A stretch of DNA of 33,577 nt, taken from positions 1 through 33,577 of the IMG/VR virus record IMGVR_UViG_3300021509_000008; one strand, 5' to 3'. The notes beneath the pieces are model-generated. The model was given only the letters and a program-made list of their open reading frames with translations. It was not told the origin of the DNA and did no database searches. The translations under genes were made by a program, and so were the position numbers. Position 1 is the stretch's first letter. Every line of letters begins with the position of its first letter. Positions 1 through 33,577 of this stretch are shown piece by piece. The stretch is from a virus.

Positions 1-152
1 AGGCTCTTCACCTTTTATCTCGTAGATTGGCGCATCTATTTTCTTTGTATAAAATGTTTCATCTTCTACATCTGCATCAATACCAAGATCAAACCCAAAA
101 TCCGACATGTCAATGCCTGAAATATCCCCGAGCTCCAAGTCTAAAATTTCAG
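1..152. repeat. Left copy of terminal overlap
   Basis: These bases match 33426-33577 over 152 positions. The only differences are at 127 (C versus T at 33552) and 133 (C versus T at 33558). The repeat lies inside the ParB-like gene, and joining the two copies keeps that gene open. It therefore reads as an assembly overlap of a circular or circularly permuted genome, not as a functional terminal repeat. Confidence 0.93.
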
Positions 153-450
153 TGTCAAACCCCGTGTTCATCGTCAGCTTATTATGCGCAAGGATATAAG
201 CTTTCTTCTGCTCATCCGTCATGTGGGAAAGTATTATTACCGGAATCTCTTCCATGCCAAGCTTGATGGCCGCAAAATAACGGCCGTGACCTTCGATAAT
301 TATCCCGGCTTCATCGACGGCAATTGGATCATTGAAACCAAATTCCTGAATAGATTTCACAATCTGGTCAATCTGCCATTCGGGATGCTCTTTTGCGTTG
401 TGTGCATAAGGAATAATTGAGTCAATCGGCATGTTGGTTATTTTCATCAT
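1..450 (-). CDS. ParB/Srx-like domain protein, N-terminal part (continues at 33425)
   Basis: This is the N-terminal 150 residues of a 248-residue protein whose remainder is at 33129-33425 across the circular junction. It has a ParB N-terminal fold: an opening like 'IPYAHNAKEHP', then 'SIQEFGFNDPIAVDE', then the GHGR box at residues 54-57 followed by 'AAIKLGMEEIPVI'. The ParB/sulfiredoxin fold binds nucleotide and DNA; phage members often sit beside terminase and DNA-modification genes. GAAGGAG lies just upstream of tandem ATGs at 450 and 447, and 447 has the better spacing. The gene sits between the kinase-TerS fusion unit and the glycosyltransferase. The exact activity (nuclease, CTPase switch or DNA-site binding) cannot be read from sequence. 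Confidence 0.88.
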   Translation of the reverse strand, partial: MMKITNMPIDSIIPYAHNAKEHPEWQIDQIVKSIQEFGFNDPIAVDEAGIIIEGHGRYFAAIKLGMEEIPVIILSHMTDEQKKAYILAHNKLTMNTGFDTEILDLELGDISGIDMSDFGFDLGIDADVEDETFYTKKIDAPIYEIKGEEP

Positions 451-464
451 TTTCTCCTTCTGGT

Positions 465-647
465 TCATTTTGAAACTATTGTGCACATAAACCCGTGAGA
501 CGAAAGGATCGAAAAAGCAATGACGGCCTGGCTTTCTCGCATGCACAAGGCTTCATTTCGATCGCTGGTCATCACTGGAAGCTTCTTACCACGCATTTTG
601 CAGATGTAACCATTGCCCGATTTAACTATAAATTTTTTACTCATCAT
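465..647 (-). CDS. Small basic phage protein, unknown function
   Basis: About 60 residues, starting 'MMSKKFIVKSGNGYICKMRG' and ending 'CTIVSK'. The start overlaps the end of the kinase-TerS gene: the sequence encoding that gene's C-terminal acidic tail also supplies an AAGGAG ribosome site. Candidate ATGs are at 653, 647 and 644; 647 gives usual spacing. It is basic with two or three Cys and no recognised domain. The overlap with the gene before and the ParB gene starting 15 bases after its stop suggest translational coupling in the packaging operon. It may be a small nucleic-acid-binding accessory protein, but this is only a guess. Confidence 0.6.
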   Translation of the reverse strand: MMSKKFIVKSGNGYICKMRGKKLPVMTSDRNEALCMRESQAVIAFSILSSHGFMCTIVSK

Positions 648-1554
648 TATCATCTTCTCCTTCAACTGAAACGACAAAGCCGGTAATCTTGTCACCGCCC
701 GATGTTAAGTCATGTTTGACAGGCCGATGCAACCCCAGGAGCTTGTTTTTTTCTGCGGTAATCGAGAGACATGTCCGGAAATCCTGCAAGCCCATACTGC
801 GCCGGTAAAGATCGTCCAACCGCTCGCATTGTTCCGATATTGCCATCTCAATGTCCCTGTTGTTAATATCGCTTATCAATTCTCTGGCTTTTCTCAGGTA
901 GTTTTCTACCTGCCGGCTTGTGATGTTCCAGTCTTTTTTATCCCGGATAAATTCATGGACGTAAAAAGTAGAAGCGCCACCGATAAGGAGTTTTGCAACT
1001 TCACGGACTCGCATGTCGAGCTCGTGTTTGCTGCAGCGCTTATATGATACTTTTGCAACCATATCAGATCCGGAATAAGTAAATTTATTATCGATAAATG
1101 TTAGTGCATTTTCAATATCTTTATTATTTTCTATGACAAAATTATTGGCCTGGCCGTCGTCGGCTTGATACGATTTATTCATCACTAAAATCCGCTGATA
1201 GCTGACATTGTGCTTGTTATATTTTGCGTGAACACGTAACGCTTTTGGCTTGAATGAAAACAAGAAACACTCGAAGCCCTCACTTTCCGCCTTATCTATA
1301 ATCCATTTATAGTTTTTTGGCACAAGGTTCATATTATCGATGACGATAAAAGACGCAGTGTTGAGCAACGATAAAACTTTCTCTTTGAACTTATTTTTGA
1401 CCGCATCTTCTCTCTTGCTGTCAAAAACATATTTCCCGTCAATATACCGGAAATCGTCCAGGGATGCGACTTCGGGGTGCGGTTCAACATGATTAACCCA
1501 GTATGATTTACCGGAGCCTGGCAGCCCCCTGTTGATGATCAGGATTTTTTTCAT
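637..1554 (-). CDS. P-loop kinase fused to small-terminase-like domain
   Basis: One 305-residue frame with two parts. Residues 1 to about 165 are a P-loop kinase: Walker A GLPGSGKS at 10-17, a 'SLDDF' acidic motif near 31-35, and a second strand 'FIVIDNMNL' near 72-80. This is the layout of AAA_33 polynucleotide-kinase-like and N4BP2L1-like proteins. Residues of about 175-305 resemble phage small terminase proteins: a helical DNA-binding region ('EVAKLLIGGASTFYVHEFI') and a late 'EKNKLLGLHRPVKHDL' motif. The start at 1554 follows GGGAG and makes an ATGA overlap with the PLD-like gene. The fusion is unusual. The kinase might act on DNA ends or on a modified base; the substrate is unknown. Confidence 0.8.
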   Translation of the reverse strand: MKKILIINRGLPGSGKSYWVNHVEPHPEVASLDDFRYIDGKYVFDSKREDAVKNKFKEKVLSLLNTASFIVIDNMNLVPKNYKWIIDKAESEGFECFLFSFKPKALRVHAKYNKHNVSYQRILVMNKSYQADDGQANNFVIENNKDIENALTFIDNKFTYSGSDMVAKVSYKRCSKHELDMRVREVAKLLIGGASTFYVHEFIRDKKDWNITSRQVENYLRKARELISDINNRDIEMAISEQCERLDDLYRRSMGLQDFRTCLSITAEKNKLLGLHRPVKHDLTSGGDKITGFVVSVEGEDDNDE

Positions 1555-2123
1555 AACAATCTCCCTATCCATTCAAGATGGAAGTCGTAAAGCTCTCTTG
1601 ATTTCGTTACCAGGAACTGTTCGATCCTAACATTCCGACTGAAATTTGCAGAAGCTTCATAAACATAAAATCCAGTTTCGCATTCGAGCAACATAACTTT
1701 CGAGTGGAGTCCGTTAATTAGTTTTATGAGAAAATTACTGCGGGATTCTGCGAATATTCGCAATCTGCCATAAAAAGCCGCTTTTCTGCCAATGATTGAC
1801 TTGTCACACAGAAAAACTACTTTTTCGGGGTTGATTTCTTTCATAACATCGATAAACTCATCGTTGAAGCTCCAGGTTGTGATGTATAGAGTTTTTACGT
1901 TATTTTTTCGATGGAAAGCAAGCAGTAATTCATTGCTCCCAAAACTCCCGTTGCTGATTATGTGATGGGTCTCGTTGTCGCCCAGACGTACAAGGTGCTC
2001 CGAAATAGCGTCAGTGCGTGCAACGAATGACATCCGGCGCTTGTTTTTCGTGACAAGAAAGCTAGGAGAAATGTCACTTGCCGATTTCTGCTTTTTTGCA
2101 GAATCGTTGAAAAAATCAAACAT
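1551..2123 (-). CDS. Phospholipase D-like (HKD) phage protein
   Basis: A 190-residue protein with one HKD-like motif near residue 145: 'HSKVMLLE', with Glu where Asp is usual, followed by 'ASANFSRNVRIEQF', which matches the GSxN-type loop of the PLD superfamily. A single motif implies dimerisation if active. Phage members of this type are commonly near packaging genes; they may be nucleases or DNA-binding remnants. The start at 2123 has GGAGG seven bases upstream, so the longer frame to 2159 is not needed. Its stop overlaps the start of the kinase-TerS gene (ATGA), and a promoter-like element lies just upstream at 2155-2183. Confidence 0.7.
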   Translation of the reverse strand: MFDFFNDSAKKQKSASDISPSFLVTKNKRRMSFVARTDAISEHLVRLGDNETHHIISNGSFGSNELLLAFHRKNNVKTLYITTWSFNDEFIDVMKEINPEKVVFLCDKSIIGRKAAFYGRLRIFAESRSNFLIKLINGLHSKVMLLECETGFYVYEASANFSRNVRIEQFLVTKSRELYDFHLEWIGRLL

Positions 2124-2154
2124 AGAAAATCCTCCAAATGAAACTATATGAACC

Positions 2155-2183
2155 AACATAAAATATAGAGAAAAACATGTAAA
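2155..2183 (-). promoter_or_regulatory. Candidate sigma70 promoter for packaging genes
   Basis: On the minus strand, TTTACA (2183-2178), a 17-base spacer and TATGTT (2160-2155) precede the PLD-like gene by about 30 bases. The -35 matches 5 of 6 and the -10 matches 4 of 6 consensus bases. The same TTCTTTACA string also occurs upstream of two other transcription units in this window. Confidence 0.5.
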
Positions 2184-3484: not shown

Positions 3485-3976
3485 TCATATTATTCGGTCA
3501 ATTGGTTCAACCCAATCAATACCGAGCAAATTAAATAAATCAATTTCTTCTCTTATCGGTAACTGCTCCCCGAATTGATTATGGAGCATGCCGTCTTTTG
3601 AATGATAGCCCTGTTTAACCCATCTCATTGCTAGTTTCTGATGAGAAAATTCTGCACTTCCTGTTCTGATTGCATAAATCAAGCCCCAATTATCCTCTGT
3701 TGCAAAGAATAAATCCAGCTTTATTCCTTCTGGAAGTATCCGCTGCGTATATCTGCAAGGCAAAGTTCCTTTCACTCGCTCCCATTTATTAACCACAGTT
3801 GCAATCCCCGATTCAAATAAATCTACATCATAAGGTTTTGGTATTGCTACAATTTCAATATCGTTTGGATATCCCTTTTTTCGACGTATAGAGCCCGCAA
3901 TCTCTATCCTTTTGCAATGCGGTTTGAGATCTTGCAATACGGAATCAGCAATCTTTTTAGCTTTTGAATATTCCAT
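3485..3976 (-). CDS. PolX-like minimal nucleotidyltransferase
   Basis: A 163-residue protein with the palm core of the DNA polymerase beta (PolX) superfamily: 'EIAGSIRRKKGYPNDIEIVA', with GS at 28-29 and metal-binding candidates Asp39 and Glu41, then Asp88 in 'IKLDLFF', and 'RTGSAEFSHQKLAMRW' matching the thumb-proximal PolX motif. The N-terminal 8-kDa and HhH domains and the PHP exonuclease of bacterial PolX (about 570 residues) are absent. The second metal ligand is Glu where PolX has Asp. It starts 23 bases after the DnaC-like gene. Gap filling during recombination, or nucleotide transfer to another substrate, are both possible. Confidence 0.75.
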   Translation of the reverse strand: MEYSKAKKIADSVLQDLKPHCKRIEIAGSIRRKKGYPNDIEIVAIPKPYDVDLFESGIATVVNKWERVKGTLPCRYTQRILPEGIKLDLFFATEDNWGLIYAIRTGSAEFSHQKLAMRWVKQGYHSKDGMLHNQFGEQLPIREEIDLFNLLGIDWVEPIDRII

Positions 3977-6724: not shown

Positions 6725-7060
6725 TCATTCATCACCTCCGTTATCTGACTTATCCTGTTGTTCCCCACATCGAGGACAAAACAAACCATTCCAGTCTTCT
6801 TCAAAACAGGTATAGCCGCATTTTTTACATTGCATAATTTTCTTAATTTCTAATCCCCCCGATATTTCCATGCTGATATTCCGATAATATCGAGCCGACC
6901 TGTTCCATTCCCTGATGGCTTCGTCAGCGCTAGGCATTCCTACACCCTGATGATGACATGCTTGGCAGACAACTCTACGAAGGTTATCATCGCCAAGATC
7001 GATTACGGGGTCATACTTCCCGCAAAGCGGGCAAGATTCAATTTTTTCTTTCATTGCCAT
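6725..7060 (-). CDS. Lar-like zinc protein with second zinc ribbon
   Basis: A 111-residue protein. Residues 9-55 fit the Lar restriction-alleviation family: CPLCG, 'VVCQACHHQG' and 'SADEAIREWNRSA'. The C-terminal part adds a second ribbon, 'MQCKKCGYTCFEEDW...FCPRCGEQ'. Lar proteins in lambda-like prophages ease type I restriction; many phage relatives are only known by the zinc motif. The ATG at 7060 follows an AAAGGAG about ten bases upstream. It is the last gene of the unit above the promoter at 6675-6703. Confidence 0.7.
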   Translation of the reverse strand: MAMKEKIESCPLCGKYDPVIDLGDDNLRRVVCQACHHQGVGMPSADEAIREWNRSARYYRNISMEISGGLEIKKIMQCKKCGYTCFEEDWNGLFCPRCGEQQDKSDNGGDE

Positions 7061-8276: not shown

Positions 8277-8900
8277 TTATATCTTTCCCCATTGCTCGGC
8301 CATTGCTTTTGCTATGCCGGTGAAGGTTTTGCTTCTCAGTTTTGCTCTTTCAGAATTAGGTAAATTCCAGGAGTCTGCATACCATGCCGGCATAGTATTT
8401 CCAGATTTATATTTCTTACGTGGTTCCGGCTTCACAATTTTTGTCGGTTTCAATTTTGGTAAACCTTTTAGCCATAGGCAGGTTCTTTTTTCATAAGGAT
8501 CACCGAATTGCCACGGTTGTATTATTTGGTCAGGCTTACGCCATTTTGTTGACATTATCCCAACGGGATTTTCTATTGCAATATTTGGGCAATCAGCGTT
8601 TGCAAATTGCATGAAGAATTTAACCGCCTTTTCTCGGTCTTCATATCTTTTTATTGCCCTTTCCCCATATTTTTCAATATTAAACCAACGGTTGCACGTT
8701 GTAGTTAGATATGTGCATGGCGGGAAGGCAATTATCATATCCCATTTTTCATTCAATAAAGGCAAAACATCCTGCTGAAGATGCCATTCCGGGTGACCAC
8801 CACAACAGGGCAATATGTCACAAGAATATGCTTCATGCCCTAATCTTCTAAACTCTTTTGTGACAGCCTGGCTTTCTTCGCAAGCGACTAATATTTTCAT
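8277..8900 (-). CDS. Cytosine-C5-methyltransferase-like protein
   Basis: A 207-residue protein of a common phage family related to DNA cytosine methylases. Seen: an N-terminal SAM-site-like 'VACEESQAVTKEFRRLG', 'CDILPCCGGHPEWHLQQD', a 'FPPCTYL' motif in place of the PC motif with the catalytic-type Cys, and 'IENPVG' in place of ENV. There is no clear target recognition domain, and the protein is about 100 residues shorter than standard C5 methylases. It may protect phage DNA from restriction or supply a base for further modification. Activity cannot be judged from sequence. It ends one base before an intercistronic hairpin. Confidence 0.7.
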   Translation of the reverse strand: MKILVACEESQAVTKEFRRLGHEAYSCDILPCCGGHPEWHLQQDVLPLLNEKWDMIIAFPPCTYLTTTCNRWFNIEKYGERAIKRYEDREKAVKFFMQFANADCPNIAIENPVGIMSTKWRKPDQIIQPWQFGDPYEKRTCLWLKGLPKLKPTKIVKPEPRKKYKSGNTMPAWYADSWNLPNSERAKLRSKTFTGIAKAMAEQWGKI

Positions 8901-8901
8901 T

Positions 8902-9630
8902 TTACACCTCCACCGTTTTTGTTTTCAAAGGATCATATACAATGAGCCCGGTCTCTTTTGCTATATAATCACGGGCTGTTTCAATGTTAAGGTTTCCTGA
9001 GCTCATATGGATTGGAATTACTATCGTTGTGAATTTAAGATCGCTTGCGTTGATGAAATCGACCGTATCCTGTAATTCCATGTGGGATTCTTTGAGCCGT
9101 GTTTCGAGTGAACCTGGGACTTTCCCTGCTTCAACGTTTTTCTTCAAAATATGATACATGTAATTACATTCAACCATGAAAACGTCAACATCACTGAATT
9201 TGTATTTTACAAAATACGTATCAGTGGCAAAAACAATTTTGACGCATTCATTTTTGCTGATTATCTCAAAACCGAGAGGTTCAGCAGCATCATGATTTGT
9301 AGAAAACGGGGTAAAACTATAGCTGGGAGTTTCATATTTCCGCAAAGCTTTTACCGGCTGGGAAAAATAATCATTCAGCTCCAGGGCGTTAAGCGTACCC
9401 TTAGAAGAGTAGAGATTGATGCCGAGGTTAACAAGATGCCCTGCAGACTTGGCATGGTCCTGATGCTCGTGTGACAATAGACAACCCTCAATGCCCGACA
9501 TGTTGAAATTCAAAGCTTTCTTGATGCGGTCAATGGATATTCCGCATTCGATCAGTAATCTTGCGCCGGAAATATCTTCCAGGATGTAGAAATTCCCCGT
9601 GCTACCTGTAGCAACTATGTCAATTTTCAT
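8902..9630 (-). CDS. Metallo-beta-lactamase-fold hydrolase (RecT partner)
   Basis: A 242-residue MBL-fold protein with the HEHQDH metal motif at residues 54-59, 'STNHDA' as the next His motif, 'FATDTYFV' with the bridging Asp, and a late 'VIPIHMSSGN'. It resembles YycJ-type phosphodiesterases. In many phages such a gene sits directly beside RecT and is thought to act as the exonuclease or processing nuclease. GGAGG lies five bases before the ATG, behind the hairpin at 9649-9666. With the SbcC-like ATPase upstream, it may replace SbcD. Confidence 0.8.
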   Translation of the reverse strand: MKIDIVATGSTGNFYILEDISGARLLIECGISIDRIKKALNFNMSGIEGCLLSHEHQDHAKSAGHLVNLGINLYSSKGTLNALELNDYFSQPVKALRKYETPSYSFTPFSTNHDAAEPLGFEIISKNECVKIVFATDTYFVKYKFSDVDVFMVECNYMYHILKKNVEAGKVPGSLETRLKESHMELQDTVDFINASDLKFTTIVIPIHMSSGNLNIETARDYIAKETGLIVYDPLKTKTVEV

Positions 9631-24288: not shown

Positions 24289-24684
24289 ATGGCATATAAT
24301 ACTATTGCGGAGCTGATAGAGCGTTACACAACAAATGAGATCACGGAGCTGTCATCCAGCATAAATGGAGAAATGGACGAGAGCGTGGTATCTCAGGCAA
24401 TTGAAGACGCAGACGCCGAAATTGACATATACCTCAATGCAAAGTATGACACACCGATCGCCGAGCCCATTCCCGGCATCATAAAAAAACTATCAGCCGT
24501 CATAGCTTATCTGAACCTGAATCATCGTAGAAATATATGGAGTGAAGAGCTTCAATCTCTCCGTGGATGGTGTGATAAGCAACTCAAAAATCTATCTGAC
24601 GGCACAATTGTTCCGGATATTGCCGGCAACGATAACGGGACTGGCAGCGTCATGATAGAATCAGAAGAATTGAGGGGCTGGTAA
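24289..24684 (+). CDS. Mu gp36-like (DUF1320) connector protein
   Basis: A 131-residue protein with the DUF1320 signature: 'NTIAELIERYTTNEITELSS', 'AIEDADAEIDIYLNAKYDTP', then 'IPGIIKKLSAVIAYLNLNHR'. These proteins form the adaptor ring under the portal. CGGAGGTAAG lies one to two bases further than usual from the ATG, in a near mirror image of the site before gp37. It is the first gene of the plus-strand block, and its stop overlaps the next start (TAATG). Confidence 0.8.
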   Translation: MAYNTIAELIERYTTNEITELSSSINGEMDESVVSQAIEDADAEIDIYLNAKYDTPIAEPIPGIIKKLSAVIAYLNLNHRRNIWSEELQSLRGWCDKQLKNLSDGTIVPDIAGNDNGTGSVMIESEELRGW

Positions 24685-25118
24685 TGTCAATATTGAGTGA
24701 AAAGACGATGGATCTGATAAAGCGCAGGATTGATGCATCCATTGCGCAGAATTTCAGAAAGGAAGGACGCCCGGATAAATGGAAAAAATCAATACGGGCA
24801 AAAGCAACTGGCGGGAAAACACTTTCAGATACCGGGACTCTCAAAAATTCCATAGTAGTGGATATAGGAAAACGCCAGCAAATTATCGCAGGCACAGGGA
24901 CGGTATATGCTGCGGTGCACCAATTCGGGTTCAAAAAAACCGTGGACGTAAAAGCGCACACACGAAAATTAAAACACGGCTCAACTACGGTGAACGTAAA
25001 GGCGCATAAAATGAAAATGAACATCCCGGCACGCCCGTTTCTCATGGTGCAGGATAATGACTGGGAATACATAGCAGAAATAATCTTACAAGGAGTCGAA
25101 AATGCCTTCGGAAAATAA
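24684..25118 (+). CDS. Mu gpG-like virion morphogenesis protein
   Basis: A 144-residue protein of the Phage_tail_S / virion morphogenesis family: 'LSDTGTLKNSIVVDIGKRQQ', 'IIAGTGTVYAAVHQFG' and a closing 'IPARPFLMVQDNDWEYIAEI'. In Mu, gpG acts in head or tail joining. It overlaps the portal gene by 17 bases. The order gp36, gpG, portal, MuF differs from Mu, where the portal precedes MuF and gpG and gp36 comes after the capsid gene. Confidence 0.85.
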   Translation: MSILSEKTMDLIKRRIDASIAQNFRKEGRPDKWKKSIRAKATGGKTLSDTGTLKNSIVVDIGKRQQIIAGTGTVYAAVHQFGFKKTVDVKAHTRKLKHGSTTVNVKAHKMKMNIPARPFLMVQDNDWEYIAEIILQGVENAFGK

Positions 25119-26334
25119 AAAAATAAAAGAACAATTACCAATTACCGACAATACTACCTTCTGGTATTCCACGCCTTCGATAGACGCCACAATGACCGTA
25201 ACCGGCGTTAAAAATATAATAGAGTCAGGGCTTACGATTGACAGGCAAGACCTGATCGACAAATTCATAACGCTAGATGATTTCCTTCTGTCGAAATACA
25301 AGGATTGCCGCTCTGCTGTACGAAAAGCAGTAGTAAGCTATGATGTATCAATGCTTGATAATCCTGATCAGGTGCTCGAAGACCTAAAAACATATATCTC
25401 GCCAGTATTAACAAATGAAATATTGAAGCATTTCATGGATGCGTCTTTCCGGGGTTTCGCTCTTGCGGAGATATTCTGGGAGATTAAGGGCAACAAAGCA
25501 ATACCGGCTTCATTAAAACCAATCCAGCCACGTTCAATCGAATTTGACGATAACAGCACAACCCCGCAGCTTTACGACTCTGAAGCAAACGTGCTGACAC
25601 CGATTCCCCCTGACAAAACTATCCAGGTATTGAGCCCGATAGTTTTTGAGAATAAAGTTCTTTCGTTGGTGGAAGGTCTTTCATTGCTGCTGTTGGTGAA
25701 ATATTATGCTCAGCTGAAGGATTTCCCCCGTTTCATGGAAGTGTGCAGCGTCCCGGCAAGGATCGGCACACTTGAGGCCGGAGCAAGCAAAGAAGACGTT
25801 AGCATTCTGAAAACAGCATTAAAGTCTGTAGGATCAGATATGGCCGCAGTGATTACCGGCCTGTCGAAAATAGAATTCATGCAGCCAAAAAGCAATGATC
25901 CGAAGGTGTTCACTGAAGCAATCAAGATTGTAAATGAAGCGATTGCACGAGTAACAGTCGGCCAAACGGGAACATCAGAGGGCGGGAGTAAAGCGTCACA
26001 GGCATCCCTGAGAGTGCTAAACGGAGTAAGAGAAGACACGCTCGCAGATTACCTCGATGATATTTCAACAGCGATAAACCGTGACCTGATAGAACCATTT
26101 TGCCGCTTCAATTATAATCTTAAAGCAATTCCGAAATTCCAGCTGCTAGTGCCGGCAGCAAACACCGACAAAATAGAGCAGGACGTCAAATTGAAAGGCT
26201 TGGGTGTACAATTCAAGAAATCATATATTGCCCGTAGGTACGATATAAATGAAGATGAATTTGAAATGGTTGAATCTACGCCGGCAACTTCTTTCAATAG
26301 CGAAATGCTAAAAAAAAAAGCCAAATTTTCATAA
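25102..26334 (+). CDS. DUF935-family portal protein, ends at frame change
   Basis: A 410-residue protein of the Mu gp29 (DUF935) portal family: 'RQDLIDKFITLDDFLLSKYK', 'KHFMDASFRGFALAEIFWEI', 'PRFMEVCSVPARIG' and 'GQTGTSEGGSKASQASLRVL'. It forms the ring through which DNA passes. The frame stops at 26334, shortly after an A10 tract. Mu gp29 is about 510 residues; the missing C-terminal helical part ('PLYDYLKKNADNLE' to 'YYGRATYSDV') is encoded in the next frame. This makes a frameshift fusion or a homopolymer sequencing error likely. AAGGAG precedes the start. Confidence 0.88.
   Translation: MPSENKKIKEQLPITDNTTFWYSTPSIDATMTVTGVKNIIESGLTIDRQDLIDKFITLDDFLLSKYKDCRSAVRKAVVSYDVSMLDNPDQVLEDLKTYISPVLTNEILKHFMDASFRGFALAEIFWEIKGNKAIPASLKPIQPRSIEFDDNSTTPQLYDSEANVLTPIPPDKTIQVLSPIVFENKVLSLVEGLSLLLLVKYYAQLKDFPRFMEVCSVPARIGTLEAGASKEDVSILKTALKSVGSDMAAVITGLSKIEFMQPKSNDPKVFTEAIKIVNEAIARVTVGQTGTSEGGSKASQASLRVLNGVREDTLADYLDDISTAINRDLIEPFCRFNYNLKAIPKFQLLVPAANTDKIEQDVKLKGLGVQFKKSYIARRYDINEDEFEMVESTPATSFNSEMLKKKAKFS
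26310..26319 (+). other. A10 slippage tract, portal to MuF frame change
   Basis: Ten A in a row near the 3' end of the portal frame (CTA AAA AAA AAA GCC). Shifting back by one base reads AAA AGC CAA and continues open to 27293. Tracts of nine or more A allow RNA polymerase slippage in bacteria, and A-rich heptamers can shift ribosomes. The alternative is a missing or extra A in the assembly. Confidence 0.65.
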
Positions 26335-26375
26335 ATAAGAAAAAAGGCACGGCATCCACTGATCCACAAAAAGCA

Positions 26376-27293
26376 TTGCAACTCATGCTGGAAGCGCATC
26401 CTGACGTATTTGCACCGCTTTATGACTACCTGAAAAAAAACGCAGATAACCTGGAATCAATCAACCCGGATAAGTTGCCCGACCTTACCGAATATCGGCA
26501 GGTGGTGACAAAAATTATAGCTTATGGTCAATATTATGGGCGAGCAACATATTCAGACGTAAAGAAAAATGCAGAGCATCAAAAAGTTACTTACGACTTC
26601 GACATGCCATATCCCGTAGCAGCTGAATATTTCGCAGAGCTGAATGACATTGACGCTGAAACATTCTACGGTGACCTTGAAAAATATGCCGGGCAAGCAT
26701 TCACAATATCCAGGATTTCATCAATTGAGACCCTGTATAGTGTGCAGGAGTATATCGCAACCCAGCTTGACCTTGGAAACATAGACCCCAAGGAATTAGG
26801 AGAAGCAATCCAGGGCTACGCAGTAAGAAACGGAGACTCCCCGCTTGAGCCGTGGCACTTACAAACCGTTATCCGCACAAATTACCAAACCGCATTTTCA
26901 AAGGGGCGTTATGAAGAGCAGCGCAAATCAAGCTTGCCCCTGTGGGGTTATGTTGCAATTGTGGATGGAAGGGAAACCGATCTTTGTAATTCTCTCGATG
27001 GAAAAGCATTCCCGAAGGATGATCCTTTCTGGGATGAATATTATCCACCGAATCATTTCAATTGCAGGTCTGAGGTCGTTGTGTTGGACGAACGCTCGGC
27101 AAAGGATTTTGGCTACAAAGTACAAGAAGATGGTCAAAATTATCTTGCAGATCAGCAAAGCAAAAATCCAGATACAGTGCTTGAACCCGGGAAGGGATTT
27201 AACACTTCGCCGGATCGGGGATTGAGTAAATATCTTGAGCAAAAAACCGATGAACTGGGGATTGATAATGTAGAAAAAGCGGAGCCTGTTTAG
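26376..27293 (+). CDS. Portal C-terminal part fused to MuF-like minor head protein
   Basis: A 305-residue open region with no clear start: TTG 26376 and ATG 26385 lack any ribosome site, and the frame is open back to 26301. The first 60 residues look like the C-terminal helices of DUF935 portals. Residues of about 70-245 fit MuF/SPP1 gp7-type minor head proteins: 'QAFTISRISSIETLYSVQEY', 'HLQTVIRTNYQTAFSKGRYE', 'VDGRETDLCNSLDGKAFPKD' and 'PPNHFNCRSEV', with Cys/His positions of the family. With a minus-one shift at 26310-26319, portal and MuF would be one 730-residue protein. Confidence 0.8.
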   Translation: MQLMLEAHPDVFAPLYDYLKKNADNLESINPDKLPDLTEYRQVVTKIIAYGQYYGRATYSDVKKNAEHQKVTYDFDMPYPVAAEYFAELNDIDAETFYGDLEKYAGQAFTISRISSIETLYSVQEYIATQLDLGNIDPKELGEAIQGYAVRNGDSPLEPWHLQTVIRTNYQTAFSKGRYEEQRKSSLPLWGYVAIVDGRETDLCNSLDGKAFPKDDPFWDEYYPPNHFNCRSEVVVLDERSAKDFGYKVQEDGQNYLADQQSKNPDTVLEPGKGFNTSPDRGLSKYLEQKTDELGIDNVEKAEPV

Positions 27294-31024: not shown

Positions 31025-32275
31025 TTAGAAGCGATCCCGTTTTATTACGGAATCGTATTTGATTCTAATTCTTTCAAATCTTCGCTTTTCAGCGGCATAA
31101 CGGAGCGCCGCCATTGCATCATCTCTGAATGGAACGGGTTCATCAAGCACGTTTCCGTCCTTATCTTCTTTCCATTTCCACTGCTGAATTTCGTTAATCG
31201 TGCCGGGGCAATTGGTGGCGTGGATATGAATGCGCTTTGTCTGCAAGACGTCGATCTGCTCCATGATTGAGCCTTTACCTTTTTTCGCAGCTGTGATTTT
31301 TGCGCCTGCTCTCTTAAATTCCATGATCCTGTCAGGCTCTGCGGAATCGGCGTTAATGTAGAAACCAAAACCCAACTTATCTCTGACCAGCTCTATCAGC
31401 TCGCCATTCGTCAGCCTGTTTCGATATACTTCATCCAGGATGTACCATTCTCCATCGTGCTCTGCGATCTTCAGGCATGCGCTGTAATGATTCCATCCGA
31501 AGTCCATCCCGCCGAAAACGTCATGTGAAAATTTTGGATCGTTAATATCAAAATCATGGATCACGTAGTTGGTCAGGATCAGGTTTCCGATCACGCCCCA
31601 TTTTCCGAGTGTGTAGATGTCGTACAATACGGCGTCGGTGTGCTTCAGTCCCTCAAGCTCTTTCTTGTACTCATCATCCAGCCAGGCGTTATCTTTGTAG
31701 GTAGTGTGCAGGATGGTTGTGCGTGGTTTCTCAAAATCGAAAAATTCTTTTTTCAGCCAGGATAAAGCAGAAATCGGGTTGAATGACAAGGTAATCTGAA
31801 ACGGTACGGATGCACGGCCACGAAGTCGCAGGTTCAGCTGTTTGAAATCGTCACGGCTGAACTCGCTCGCCTCTTCCATCCAGATGTCAGTCAGTACCCC
31901 GGTCTCAAAAGTAATAGATTTAATCTTTTCACGGTCGTCTAGTCCCATGAAAATCATCTTGCTGCCATTCACCATATTTGTAATTGACATCTCGCCAGAG
32001 TTGATTTTGTACCAGTCGGTCGGTAAGCCCCAATCCGAGATAATCTGCTTCGTAAGAGCGAAGGTGGAATGCCGGGAAGTGCGCCCGACTTTACGCAGGA
32101 TCAGGAAATTGTGTCCGCCCGCAAGCCACTTTATAATGTTTCGCTGAGCGACAAATACAGACTTCCCGGAGCCAGCGCCCCCGACCAGGACGTTGAACCT
32201 GTTGTGGTCATGTAAAAGCGGCCGGTATGCTTTGTTGAACACATCGGCCTTGATTTTTACGGGGATTGTGGACAA
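31025..32275 (-). CDS. terL: Terminase large subunit (PBSX-type)
   Basis: A 416-residue terminase: Walker A GGAGSGKS at residues 32-39, Walker B 'LTDIWMEEA' near 128-136, coupling motif 'LSFNP' at 163-167, and an RNase H-like nuclease with 'GGMDFGWN' near 255, a middle 'YINADSAEPDRI', and a late 'FRDDAMAALRYA'. This is the PBSX/Terminase_3 layout. It drives DNA into proheads and cuts the concatemer. The start is TTG directly after the previous stop (TAATTG), with GGAG six bases upstream. It is far from the portal gene, which is on the other strand. Confidence 0.93.
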   Translation of the reverse strand: MSTIPVKIKADVFNKAYRPLLHDHNRFNVLVGGAGSGKSVFVAQRNIIKWLAGGHNFLILRKVGRTSRHSTFALTKQIISDWGLPTDWYKINSGEMSITNMVNGSKMIFMGLDDREKIKSITFETGVLTDIWMEEASEFSRDDFKQLNLRLRGRASVPFQITLSFNPISALSWLKKEFFDFEKPRTTILHTTYKDNAWLDDEYKKELEGLKHTDAVLYDIYTLGKWGVIGNLILTNYVIHDFDINDPKFSHDVFGGMDFGWNHYSACLKIAEHDGEWYILDEVYRNRLTNGELIELVRDKLGFGFYINADSAEPDRIMEFKRAGAKITAAKKGKGSIMEQIDVLQTKRIHIHATNCPGTINEIQQWKWKEDKDGNVLDEPVPFRDDAMAALRYAAEKRRFERIRIKYDSVIKRDRF

Positions 32276-33139
32276 TTACGTCTCCATTTTTTTATGAGTT
32301 TCTCTTATTATACGCGGAACGGCAAACTTCCACTTGACCTGATGATGGATCCTTTTATGAGACAAGCCCATCATCATACATTTAACGCAGGACGGCGCAA
32401 ACATAACGGAATAAAAGCTTTTCACGTATGTCCCAAGCTCTAAATATATGTCGGTAAGGCCTCCAGTGTTGGACTGTGTTCTTTTTTGTGTTATCGATAC
32501 TTGCGGGACAGTAAAAAATAATACCCCACGGCTACCGTAAACTAATGGCGAAATAACATCTTCGTTAATCTTACCAAGAAAATTAAAACGTCTTTCTGTT
32601 GATAATATATGGGTATTCATGCATTTACGTCTTGCTCCCTTCCTGTTTTCAAAGCCGTTATCTGCACCTCCGATCCAGTCACCACCTTGAGCCATCGCAA
32701 GATCAAAAAACCCACCTGATTGGTAGTAGTCTATCAATATGTCAAAAATTCTATCTAGATTTTTTATCGGGTGAGCCCCAAACTCATTCCGGTGATTAAA
32801 TTTATACTCAATAGAAGAATAGTCATCATCATATTCCATGAAATATTTCAAACCTAGAGATTCCGCAATATCGAAACAGGCGTTCCTAGCATAGACTACA
32901 GCGTTATAGCTTTTAAAATTATCACCAACATCAAACTTACCTGCATACTTTGATTTGTCGAAAACTATAACCTGATCGCCGTATTTTTTCACATAAAGAT
33001 CATGCTGGTCATCTTCATTATCTATTAGCAAGTATATTTTCCCGGAATACCCAGCTGATCGCAGTTTTTTATAAGTTATGACATTGTCGGCTCTCCCGTG
33101 CGTAAGGATAAATAATGCAAAATCATTGCTATGCTTCAT
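32276..33139 (-). CDS. GT-A glycosyltransferase, TET-associated type (TAGT-like)
   Basis: A 287-residue protein with a GT-A fold: 'FALFILTHGRADNVITYKKL', 'GYSGKIYLLIDNEDDQ', 'VYARNACFDIAESLGLKYFM' and a metal-binding-type motif 'EYDDDYSSIEY' near 104-114. This pattern matches what I know of the TET-associated glycosyltransferases of phages, some of which add sugars to hydroxymethylcytosine in DNA. No TET/JBP dioxygenase or hmC/hmU synthesis gene is visible here. GGAGG precedes the ATG, which overlaps the ParB stop. It lies directly before TerL. Confidence 0.75.
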   Translation of the reverse strand: MKHSNDFALFILTHGRADNVITYKKLRSAGYSGKIYLLIDNEDDQHDLYVKKYGDQVIVFDKSKYAGKFDVGDNFKSYNAVVYARNACFDIAESLGLKYFMEYDDDYSSIEYKFNHRNEFGAHPIKNLDRIFDILIDYYQSGGFFDLAMAQGGDWIGGADNGFENRKGARRKCMNTHILSTERRFNFLGKINEDVISPLVYGSRGVLFFTVPQVSITQKRTQSNTGGLTDIYLELGTYVKSFYSVMFAPSCVKCMMMGLSHKRIHHQVKWKFAVPRIIRETHKKMET

Positions 33140-33577
33140 CCGGGTAATCCTCCAAGTATTGTTTCTTTATTTCGTCACTCAATTTAACGAAGCCGGACTC
33201 TATCGCTTTTTTGAAGTCGATTATAACGAGCGCCGAGTTTTCCATAAGCCGTTGGACTTCGGGGGTGGCGTGAGCATAATACTCAGCAATGTTTTCATAA
33301 TTAAAAACATTATGTCTTTGTGCGGCACAAATTAAAAAATCCTTCACTTTATCCGGTATGTCTGACGAATTAATCTCTTCGATTAACTCAATAGATTTTG
33401 TTGTATCAACTAAATCATCTTCACTAGGCTCTTCACCTTTTATCTCGTAGATTGGCGCATCTATTTTCTTTGTATAAAATGTTTCATCTTCTACATCTGC
33501 ATCAATACCAAGATCAAACCCAAAATCCGACATGTCAATGCCTGAAATATCTCCGAGTTCCAAGTCTAAAATTTCAG
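33129..33577 (-). CDS. ParB-like protein, C-terminal part (joins 1-450)
   Basis: Residues from about 100 to 248 of the ParB-like protein, overlapping the left copy within the terminal repeat. After the ParB core comes 'ELGDISGIDMSDFGFDLGID', an acidic linker, then a conserved helical C-terminal domain ('SSDIPDKVKDFLICAAQRHN', 'IAEYYAHATPEVQRLMENSA', 'IIDFKKAIESGFVKLSD') also seen in other phage ParB-like proteins. The frame is open off the end of the window and matches that of 1-450. The stop overlaps the glycosyltransferase start. Confidence 0.88.
   Translation of the reverse strand, partial: EILDLELGDISGIDMSDFGFDLGIDADVEDETFYTKKIDAPIYEIKGEEPSEDDLVDTTKSIELIEEINSSDIPDKVKDFLICAAQRHNVFNYENIAEYYAHATPEVQRLMENSALVIIDFKKAIESGFVKLSDEIKKQYLEDYPDEA
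33426..33577. repeat. Right copy of terminal overlap
   Basis: Matches bases 1-152 with two differences, both C to T on the plus strand (33552 and 33558). Both fall in third codon positions of the ParB-like gene (GAG/GAA and GGG/GGA). This points to two natural variants in a sampled population, joined at the contig ends. Confidence 0.93.

Follow-up and report, generated by a model that had tools for sequence, protein, structure and literature searches.

The glycosyltransferase gene beside the terminase gene of this virus belongs to a real, widespread two-gene unit in which a TAGT-family enzyme is paired with a conserved C-terminal domain (CTD) of the gene immediately upstream; the unit is under purifying selection and sits at a known kind of locus. 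The pairing is obligate, the two components co-diverge, the catalytic motifs of the enzyme are conserved, both the slot before the terminase and the alleles that fill it are exchanged between phages, and TET is absent from the records searched. As far as the examined literature shows, the obligate CTD partner and its exchange with TAGT as one block are new. Genomic context and family membership make DNA glycosylation the best-supported candidate function of the pair.

The window, by which we mean the whole 33,577-nt virus record, is circular, with bases 1–152 corresponding to 33426–33577 in an end repeat that contains two mismatches. Four features lie across and beside the circular junction:

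1..450 (conserved block 85–447), minus strand: N-terminal part of the partner gene, a ParB/Srx-fold domain (phrog_620, 209 bits; PF02195, 24.7 bits, cut-off 26.3)
33129..33425, minus strand: C-terminal part of the partner gene, the predicted helical CTD, continuing from 1..450 across the circular junction
32276..33139, minus strand: TAGT-family GT-A glycosyltransferase, 287 amino acids (PF20691, 108 bits, cut-off 27.5; phrog_842, 199 bits)
31025..32275, minus strand: TerL, the terminase large subunit, abutting TAGT (PF04466, 181 bits; PF17288, 51 bits)

The partner gene runs on the minus strand from 450 to 1 and then from 33425 to 33129, starts with an ATG behind AAGGAG, and overlaps TAGT by 11 nt; TAGT and TerL abut with 0 nt between them, and a ribosome-binding site is present for each of the three genes. 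Gene order and family matches bear out the first-pass annotation in so far as it had placed a ParB-like protein, a TAGT-like glycosyltransferase (32276–33139) and TerL in one unit running through the junction. This order is the layout of the ParB-TLS DNA-modification locus and is repeated in a Rac-like E. coli phage, jlb1, NTR1 and a Porphyromonas phage. Elsewhere in the record, the head-tail adaptor, neck, portal and minor head genes (24289–27293) are on the plus strand, while TerL, the head protease and the major head protein are on the minus strand; no exact inverted repeat of at least 11 bases was found around the ends of this block, which is either a real inversion or an assembly chimera.

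A scan of viral contigs with the single TAGT sequence returned no relatives, so that an alignment query was needed; the relatives from annotated phages, viral contigs and bacterial genomes made up 127 loci, including the window's own. A ParB-family gene lies no more than 200 bp upstream of TAGT in 102 of the 110 loci with enough upstream sequence, mostly overlapping it by 4–35 nt, and most of the eight exceptions can be put down to insertions, of a second TAGT in L097 and L103 and of a methyltransferase in L026, L028 and L058, or to the choice of start. The partner gene combines a variable ParB domain with the conserved CTD of about 100 amino acids, the consensus of which contains ...FLILAAERHTVFNYSKIADYYAHASKEVQELMEESALVIIDFDKAIENGYVKL.... 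The CTD gene immediately precedes the TAGT gene, with an overlap of a few bases, in all 202 cases (three apparent exceptions are alternative starts); these cases include 79 new loci retrieved independently with the CTD as sole query, and TAGT is the next gene in 79 of 79. The CTD stands alone in 62 complete cases and is fused to ParB in 128, meaning that about two thirds of the partners are fusions and about a third are without ParB. Sequence distances of CTD and TAGT are correlated (r = 0.53; maximum of 200 permutations, 0.21), whereas the correlation between ParB and TAGT (0.14) equals the permutation maximum (0.14). Because the CTD is always paired with TAGT and co-diverges with it, and ParB does not, the CTD is the obligate partner and ParB an exchangeable add-on.

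Structure prediction gave a high-confidence helical model of the CTD. No Pfam family matched it at the curated cut-off and PDB sequences gave only weak matches, all with E ≥ 0.03; the weak matches to PF23887 (Phage_Gene47) in 14 of 39 CTD members, with a best E of 0.0015, do not lead us to claim membership of that family. As it is mainly the ParB part of the partner model that determines its fold matches, we do not claim the CTD as a new fold either. No natural CTD–TAGT fusion was found among the partner/TAGT loci. Clustering of neighbouring genes within 10 kb of TAGT produced no recurrent family besides the partner and terminase genes, the next largest cluster being present in 19 of 127 loci, and a hidden third gene beside the pair was rejected on this ground. 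The methyltransferase inserted between partner and TAGT in the three loci named above is of class I and is optional; it might conceivably decorate the sugar. TAGT itself is found in tandem in L097, L103 and L200 and in three copies in L124.

A natural experiment in exchange is provided by a sister phage, L216. When compared with the circularised window by blastn, its flanks are 92–94% identical in nucleotide sequence, and the ParB domain and TerL are 93% and 97% identical in amino acid sequence, respectively. Between two window positions, however, both the CTD of L216 and its PF20691 protein (37.8 bits) differ from those of the window:

85: exchange breakpoint 1, at the end of the ParB domain
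32287: exchange breakpoint 2, 11 nt before the end of TAGT

Streptococcus phage Javan291 has an L216-type pair (enzyme 54% and CTD 51% identical) behind a different ParB domain and before TerL. On the basis of these two types, each enzyme type appears to travel with its own CTD.

The AlphaFold2 model of TAGT (pLDDT 92.6, pTM 0.90) displays a GT-A fold. Its best match is GnT-I (Z = 14.9, 3.8 Å over 196 residues), and the many other GT-A enzymes matched among known structures, at 7–14% identity, include protein O-glycosyltransferases, a likeness at the fold level only; a search by sequence for the structure of a DNA-acting TAGT recovered none. Matches of this kind do not discriminate between a DNA-modifying enzyme and a cell-wall or protein-modifying one. 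Across 70 relatives, residues D105, D106 and D194 never vary, and D104, N192 and E193 hardly do; the DDD and ED motifs can be aligned with those of T6 ggt. The gene is maintained, since dN/dS is mostly 0.05–0.16 in comparisons among E. coli-type genes; one near-identical E. coli-type pair has a dN/dS of 0.56, which derives from very few changes. We propose that TAGT is an active GT-A glycosyltransferase.

The ParB domain contains an invariant G52 and a GHxR-type motif, and the model of a relative's partner protein matches nucleotide-bound (CDP/CTP) ParB structures and Noc with Z scores of about 15–16. The predicted fold is that of a ParB N-domain with a nucleotide site, of the ParB/Srx CTPase-clamp type. 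Related ParB domains are fused to amino-methyltransferase-type enzymes in 37 of 80 loci, by a simple count of the xPPY motif, and to other tails too; ParB-methyltransferase fusions lie upstream of terminase genes in Javan380 (ParB 60% identical), ctGfd272 and T280. In L230, L234, L235, L250 and others, the ParB domain is followed by a long tail that is not a methyltransferase and that may be DUF4417-like; it is possibly another modification or counter-defence enzyme.

A packaging-linked modification locus is not a new concept, because Iyer et al. (2013, as cited in PMC6536676) had already put forward the ParB-TLS slot, in which ParB would direct DNA modification at packaging. Going by that citing text, the locus described here is like ParB-TLS in having a ParB-like gene, a DNA-modification-type gene and TerL in a row, and ParB may be fused to methyltransferases there too. 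Unlike in ParB-TLS as so described, the enzyme here has the CTD, not ParB, as its obligate partner, and CTD and TAGT are exchanged as one block.

We examined the records for enzymes that could supply a hydroxylated base. That no TET/JBP or hydroxymethyl-pyrimidine gene is visible had been noted on first inspection of the window; this was confirmed there and proved general across related records. TET/JBP (PF12851) was found in none of 42 records (the window and 41 related ones), with the TET phage Nigel detected as a positive control (E = 4.2e-8). Thymidylate-synthase-like PF00303 is not in the window and occurs in one of the 42 records, a Vibrio jumbo phage; PF00145 has a single, partial match in the 42; and neither 2OG-oxygenase PF13640 nor ThyX (PF02511) is in the window or in any of 27 records. 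Some viral records are fragments, which makes single absences weak, but not the overall pattern. In phage c5 the CTD–TAGT pair lies beside the cos site, and none of the 50 annotated genes of this phage is listed as a methylase or hydroxylase. Because no supplier of a hydroxylated base was found, the pair would act on an unmodified base, a host-modified base or a non-DNA target. As to the sugar, Microbacterium phage Quhwah (L297 3951–6346) has ParB, a small gene, a divergent TAGT-like enzyme and a UDP-glucose dehydrogenase central-domain protein in a row, and the last of these genes may hint at the donor.

Three further genes of the window had been considered as parts of a larger cassette and are judged to lie outside the unit:

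637..1572, minus strand: P-loop kinase and HTH protein (N-terminal half AAA_33, 25.7 bits, cut-off 27; phrog_505 polynucleotide kinase)
1551..2159, minus strand: PLD-like protein (HxK(x)4E motif only, HSKVMLLE; no Pfam match)
8277..8900, minus strand: cytosine-methylase-like protein (phrog_757 'DNA methyltransferase', 236 bits; PPC and ENP motifs)

The first-pass annotation saw in the kinase, PLD-like, ParB-like and glycosyltransferase genes a possible DNA-modification cassette, whose products would cooperate in base hypermodification, and these genes are indeed adjacent on one strand in the genome studied. The part of the proposal that stands is TAGT with the ParB-like gene beside the terminase; the remaining genes do not recur with TAGT homologues. 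Among the 127 TAGT loci, no homologue of the kinase-HTH, PLD-like or zinc-ribbon protein was found, and the only other relative of the kinase-HTH protein is in L216, where its C-terminal end lies at the start of the contig. Furthermore, its P-loop domain is closest to polynucleotide kinases, and its C-terminal half, with phrog_645 (named 'RNase E') as sole match, is plausibly TerS-like. We therefore reject the kinase-HTH gene as a conserved component and regard the larger cassette as highly improbable. The cytosine-methylase-like protein has one homologue in TAGT loci and occurs in two of 35 whole TAGT records, its own included, which rules it out as a general precursor supplier; PF00145 has no match anywhere in the virus record, 8277–8900 included. 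Other genes of the window encode a metallo-beta-lactamase-fold protein (8902–9630, phrog_392) that matches the anti-Pycsar protein Apyc1 below the threshold, a protein weakly matching Lar-like restriction alleviation proteins (6725–7060, phrog_599, 35.6 bits), and a 163-amino acid protein (3485–3976) that has no PHROG match and in which a GSxRR...DxE pattern, as in polymerase-beta-type nucleotidyltransferases, is recognisable by eye.

We give slightly better than an even chance to the explanation that the pair is expressed late and works as a two-component system for glycosylating DNA, of the ParB-terminase (ParB-TLS) type. We infer that CTD and TAGT form a physical complex, in which the CTD would be a dedicated docking or activating domain for the enzyme, and the ParB domain, where present, would be an exchangeable DNA-clamp or targeting module common to phage methyltransferases; the CTD would dock TAGT onto the DNA-bound ParB clamp. 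The two proteins would be translated together immediately before TerL and would put sugar on phage DNA around or before packaging, and the nucleases of the next host would then not cut it. Such DNA targeting is not universal, because about a third of the partners are without ParB. It is conceivable, if doubtful, that CTD and TAGT are self-sufficient and place the sugar directly onto an unmodified base, for example on an exocyclic amine, without a hydroxylated precursor.

The same missing base supply and ParB-less partners would also fit an enzyme that glycosylates a protein, be it the terminase, the partner or a host protein, with its place beside the terminase reflecting packaging or takeover. 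The PGAP name of the E. coli TAGT member is 'GREB1-related', GREB1, reportedly of the same superfamily, is described as a protein glycosyltransferase in a title cited in PMC9044904, and the fold-level neighbours among protein O-glycosyltransferases point the same way. We nevertheless consider a protein target unlikely, given the fusion to ParB, the fact that DNA methyltransferases can take the place of the enzyme in its slot, and the action of the T6 homologue on DNA; one conserved protein target is less likely because the unit is common to unrelated terminases and hosts. Rather improbable, too, is a conventional pathway of the TET or hydroxymethylase type, which would require prior hydroxylation of the base by an enzyme of phage or host that has escaped recognition. 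Characterised DNA-acting relatives do use hydroxymethyl bases, and the genome studied has its cytosine-methylase-like gene, but no third family recurs near TAGT and the candidate suppliers are missing or rare (TET 0/42, PF13640 0/27, ThyX 0/27, phrog_757 2/35), counts that leave room for host-encoded, highly divergent or locus-distant enzymes.

Of the known relatives, the PF20691 member of T6 adds a second sugar to DNA, according to PMC13216743 and PMC13390438. This beta-glucosyl-HMC-alpha-glucosyltransferase (ggt) shares family and aligned motifs with the TAGT studied here, but is only about 16% identical to it and lacks a neighbouring CTD gene in the T6 region as annotated; moreover, T6 has a dCMP hydroxymethylase and an alpha-GT, neither of which was found in the genome studied. 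'Solitary' TAGT homologues, PF20691 proteins without alpha-GT or beta-GT like the one described here, were counted in 288 of 753 phage genomes, and in its available text PMC13216743 (2026) leaves their role open. The present analysis adds a partner gene and a context to those counts, and the CTD–TAGT unit probably accounts for many of these homologues. ParBc-domain genes also flank a proven phage DNA-modification system, the CmoX/CmoY carboxymethylcytosine system (PMC12783734); unlike TAGT, CmoX is a C5 carboxymethyltransferase with an AMP-forming ligase, and the paper mentions no glycosyltransferase.

Carriers of the unit come from E. coli, other enterobacteria, Lactobacillus, Nocardia, Porphyromonas and Vibrio, as well as from the archaeon Haloarcula, Bacteroidales, Clostridia, Desulfovibrio and Spirochaetes. 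Of 5426 complete E. coli genomes, 990 carry the TAGT gene and 865 of these have at least 80% of it, so that roughly one genome in six is a carrier; the gene resides there in Rac-like prophages, and related phages have been sequenced from E. coli. At the place where an intact Rac-like prophage has ParB, TAGT and terminase, the Rac prophage of E. coli K-12 has only ynaK (L215 7378–7641), annotated as ParB-like, and neither TAGT nor terminase. Judging by position and name, ynaK would be what is left, in truncated form, of the partner gene from a ParB-CTD/TAGT unit that has been lost.

Solitary TAGT homologues can thereby be assigned a partner of their own and a minimal unit of two genes, and E. 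coli is a tractable host for them. If the target is DNA that needs no hydroxylation, the unit would represent a different DNA glycosylation chemistry and a widespread anti-restriction layer; with an unmodified base as acceptor, this would be a DNA modification class spanning phages, prophages and archaeal viruses, and the CTD would be a new kind of docking domain. If the target is instead a protein, the phage would have, next to its packaging motor, a system for glycosylating proteins.
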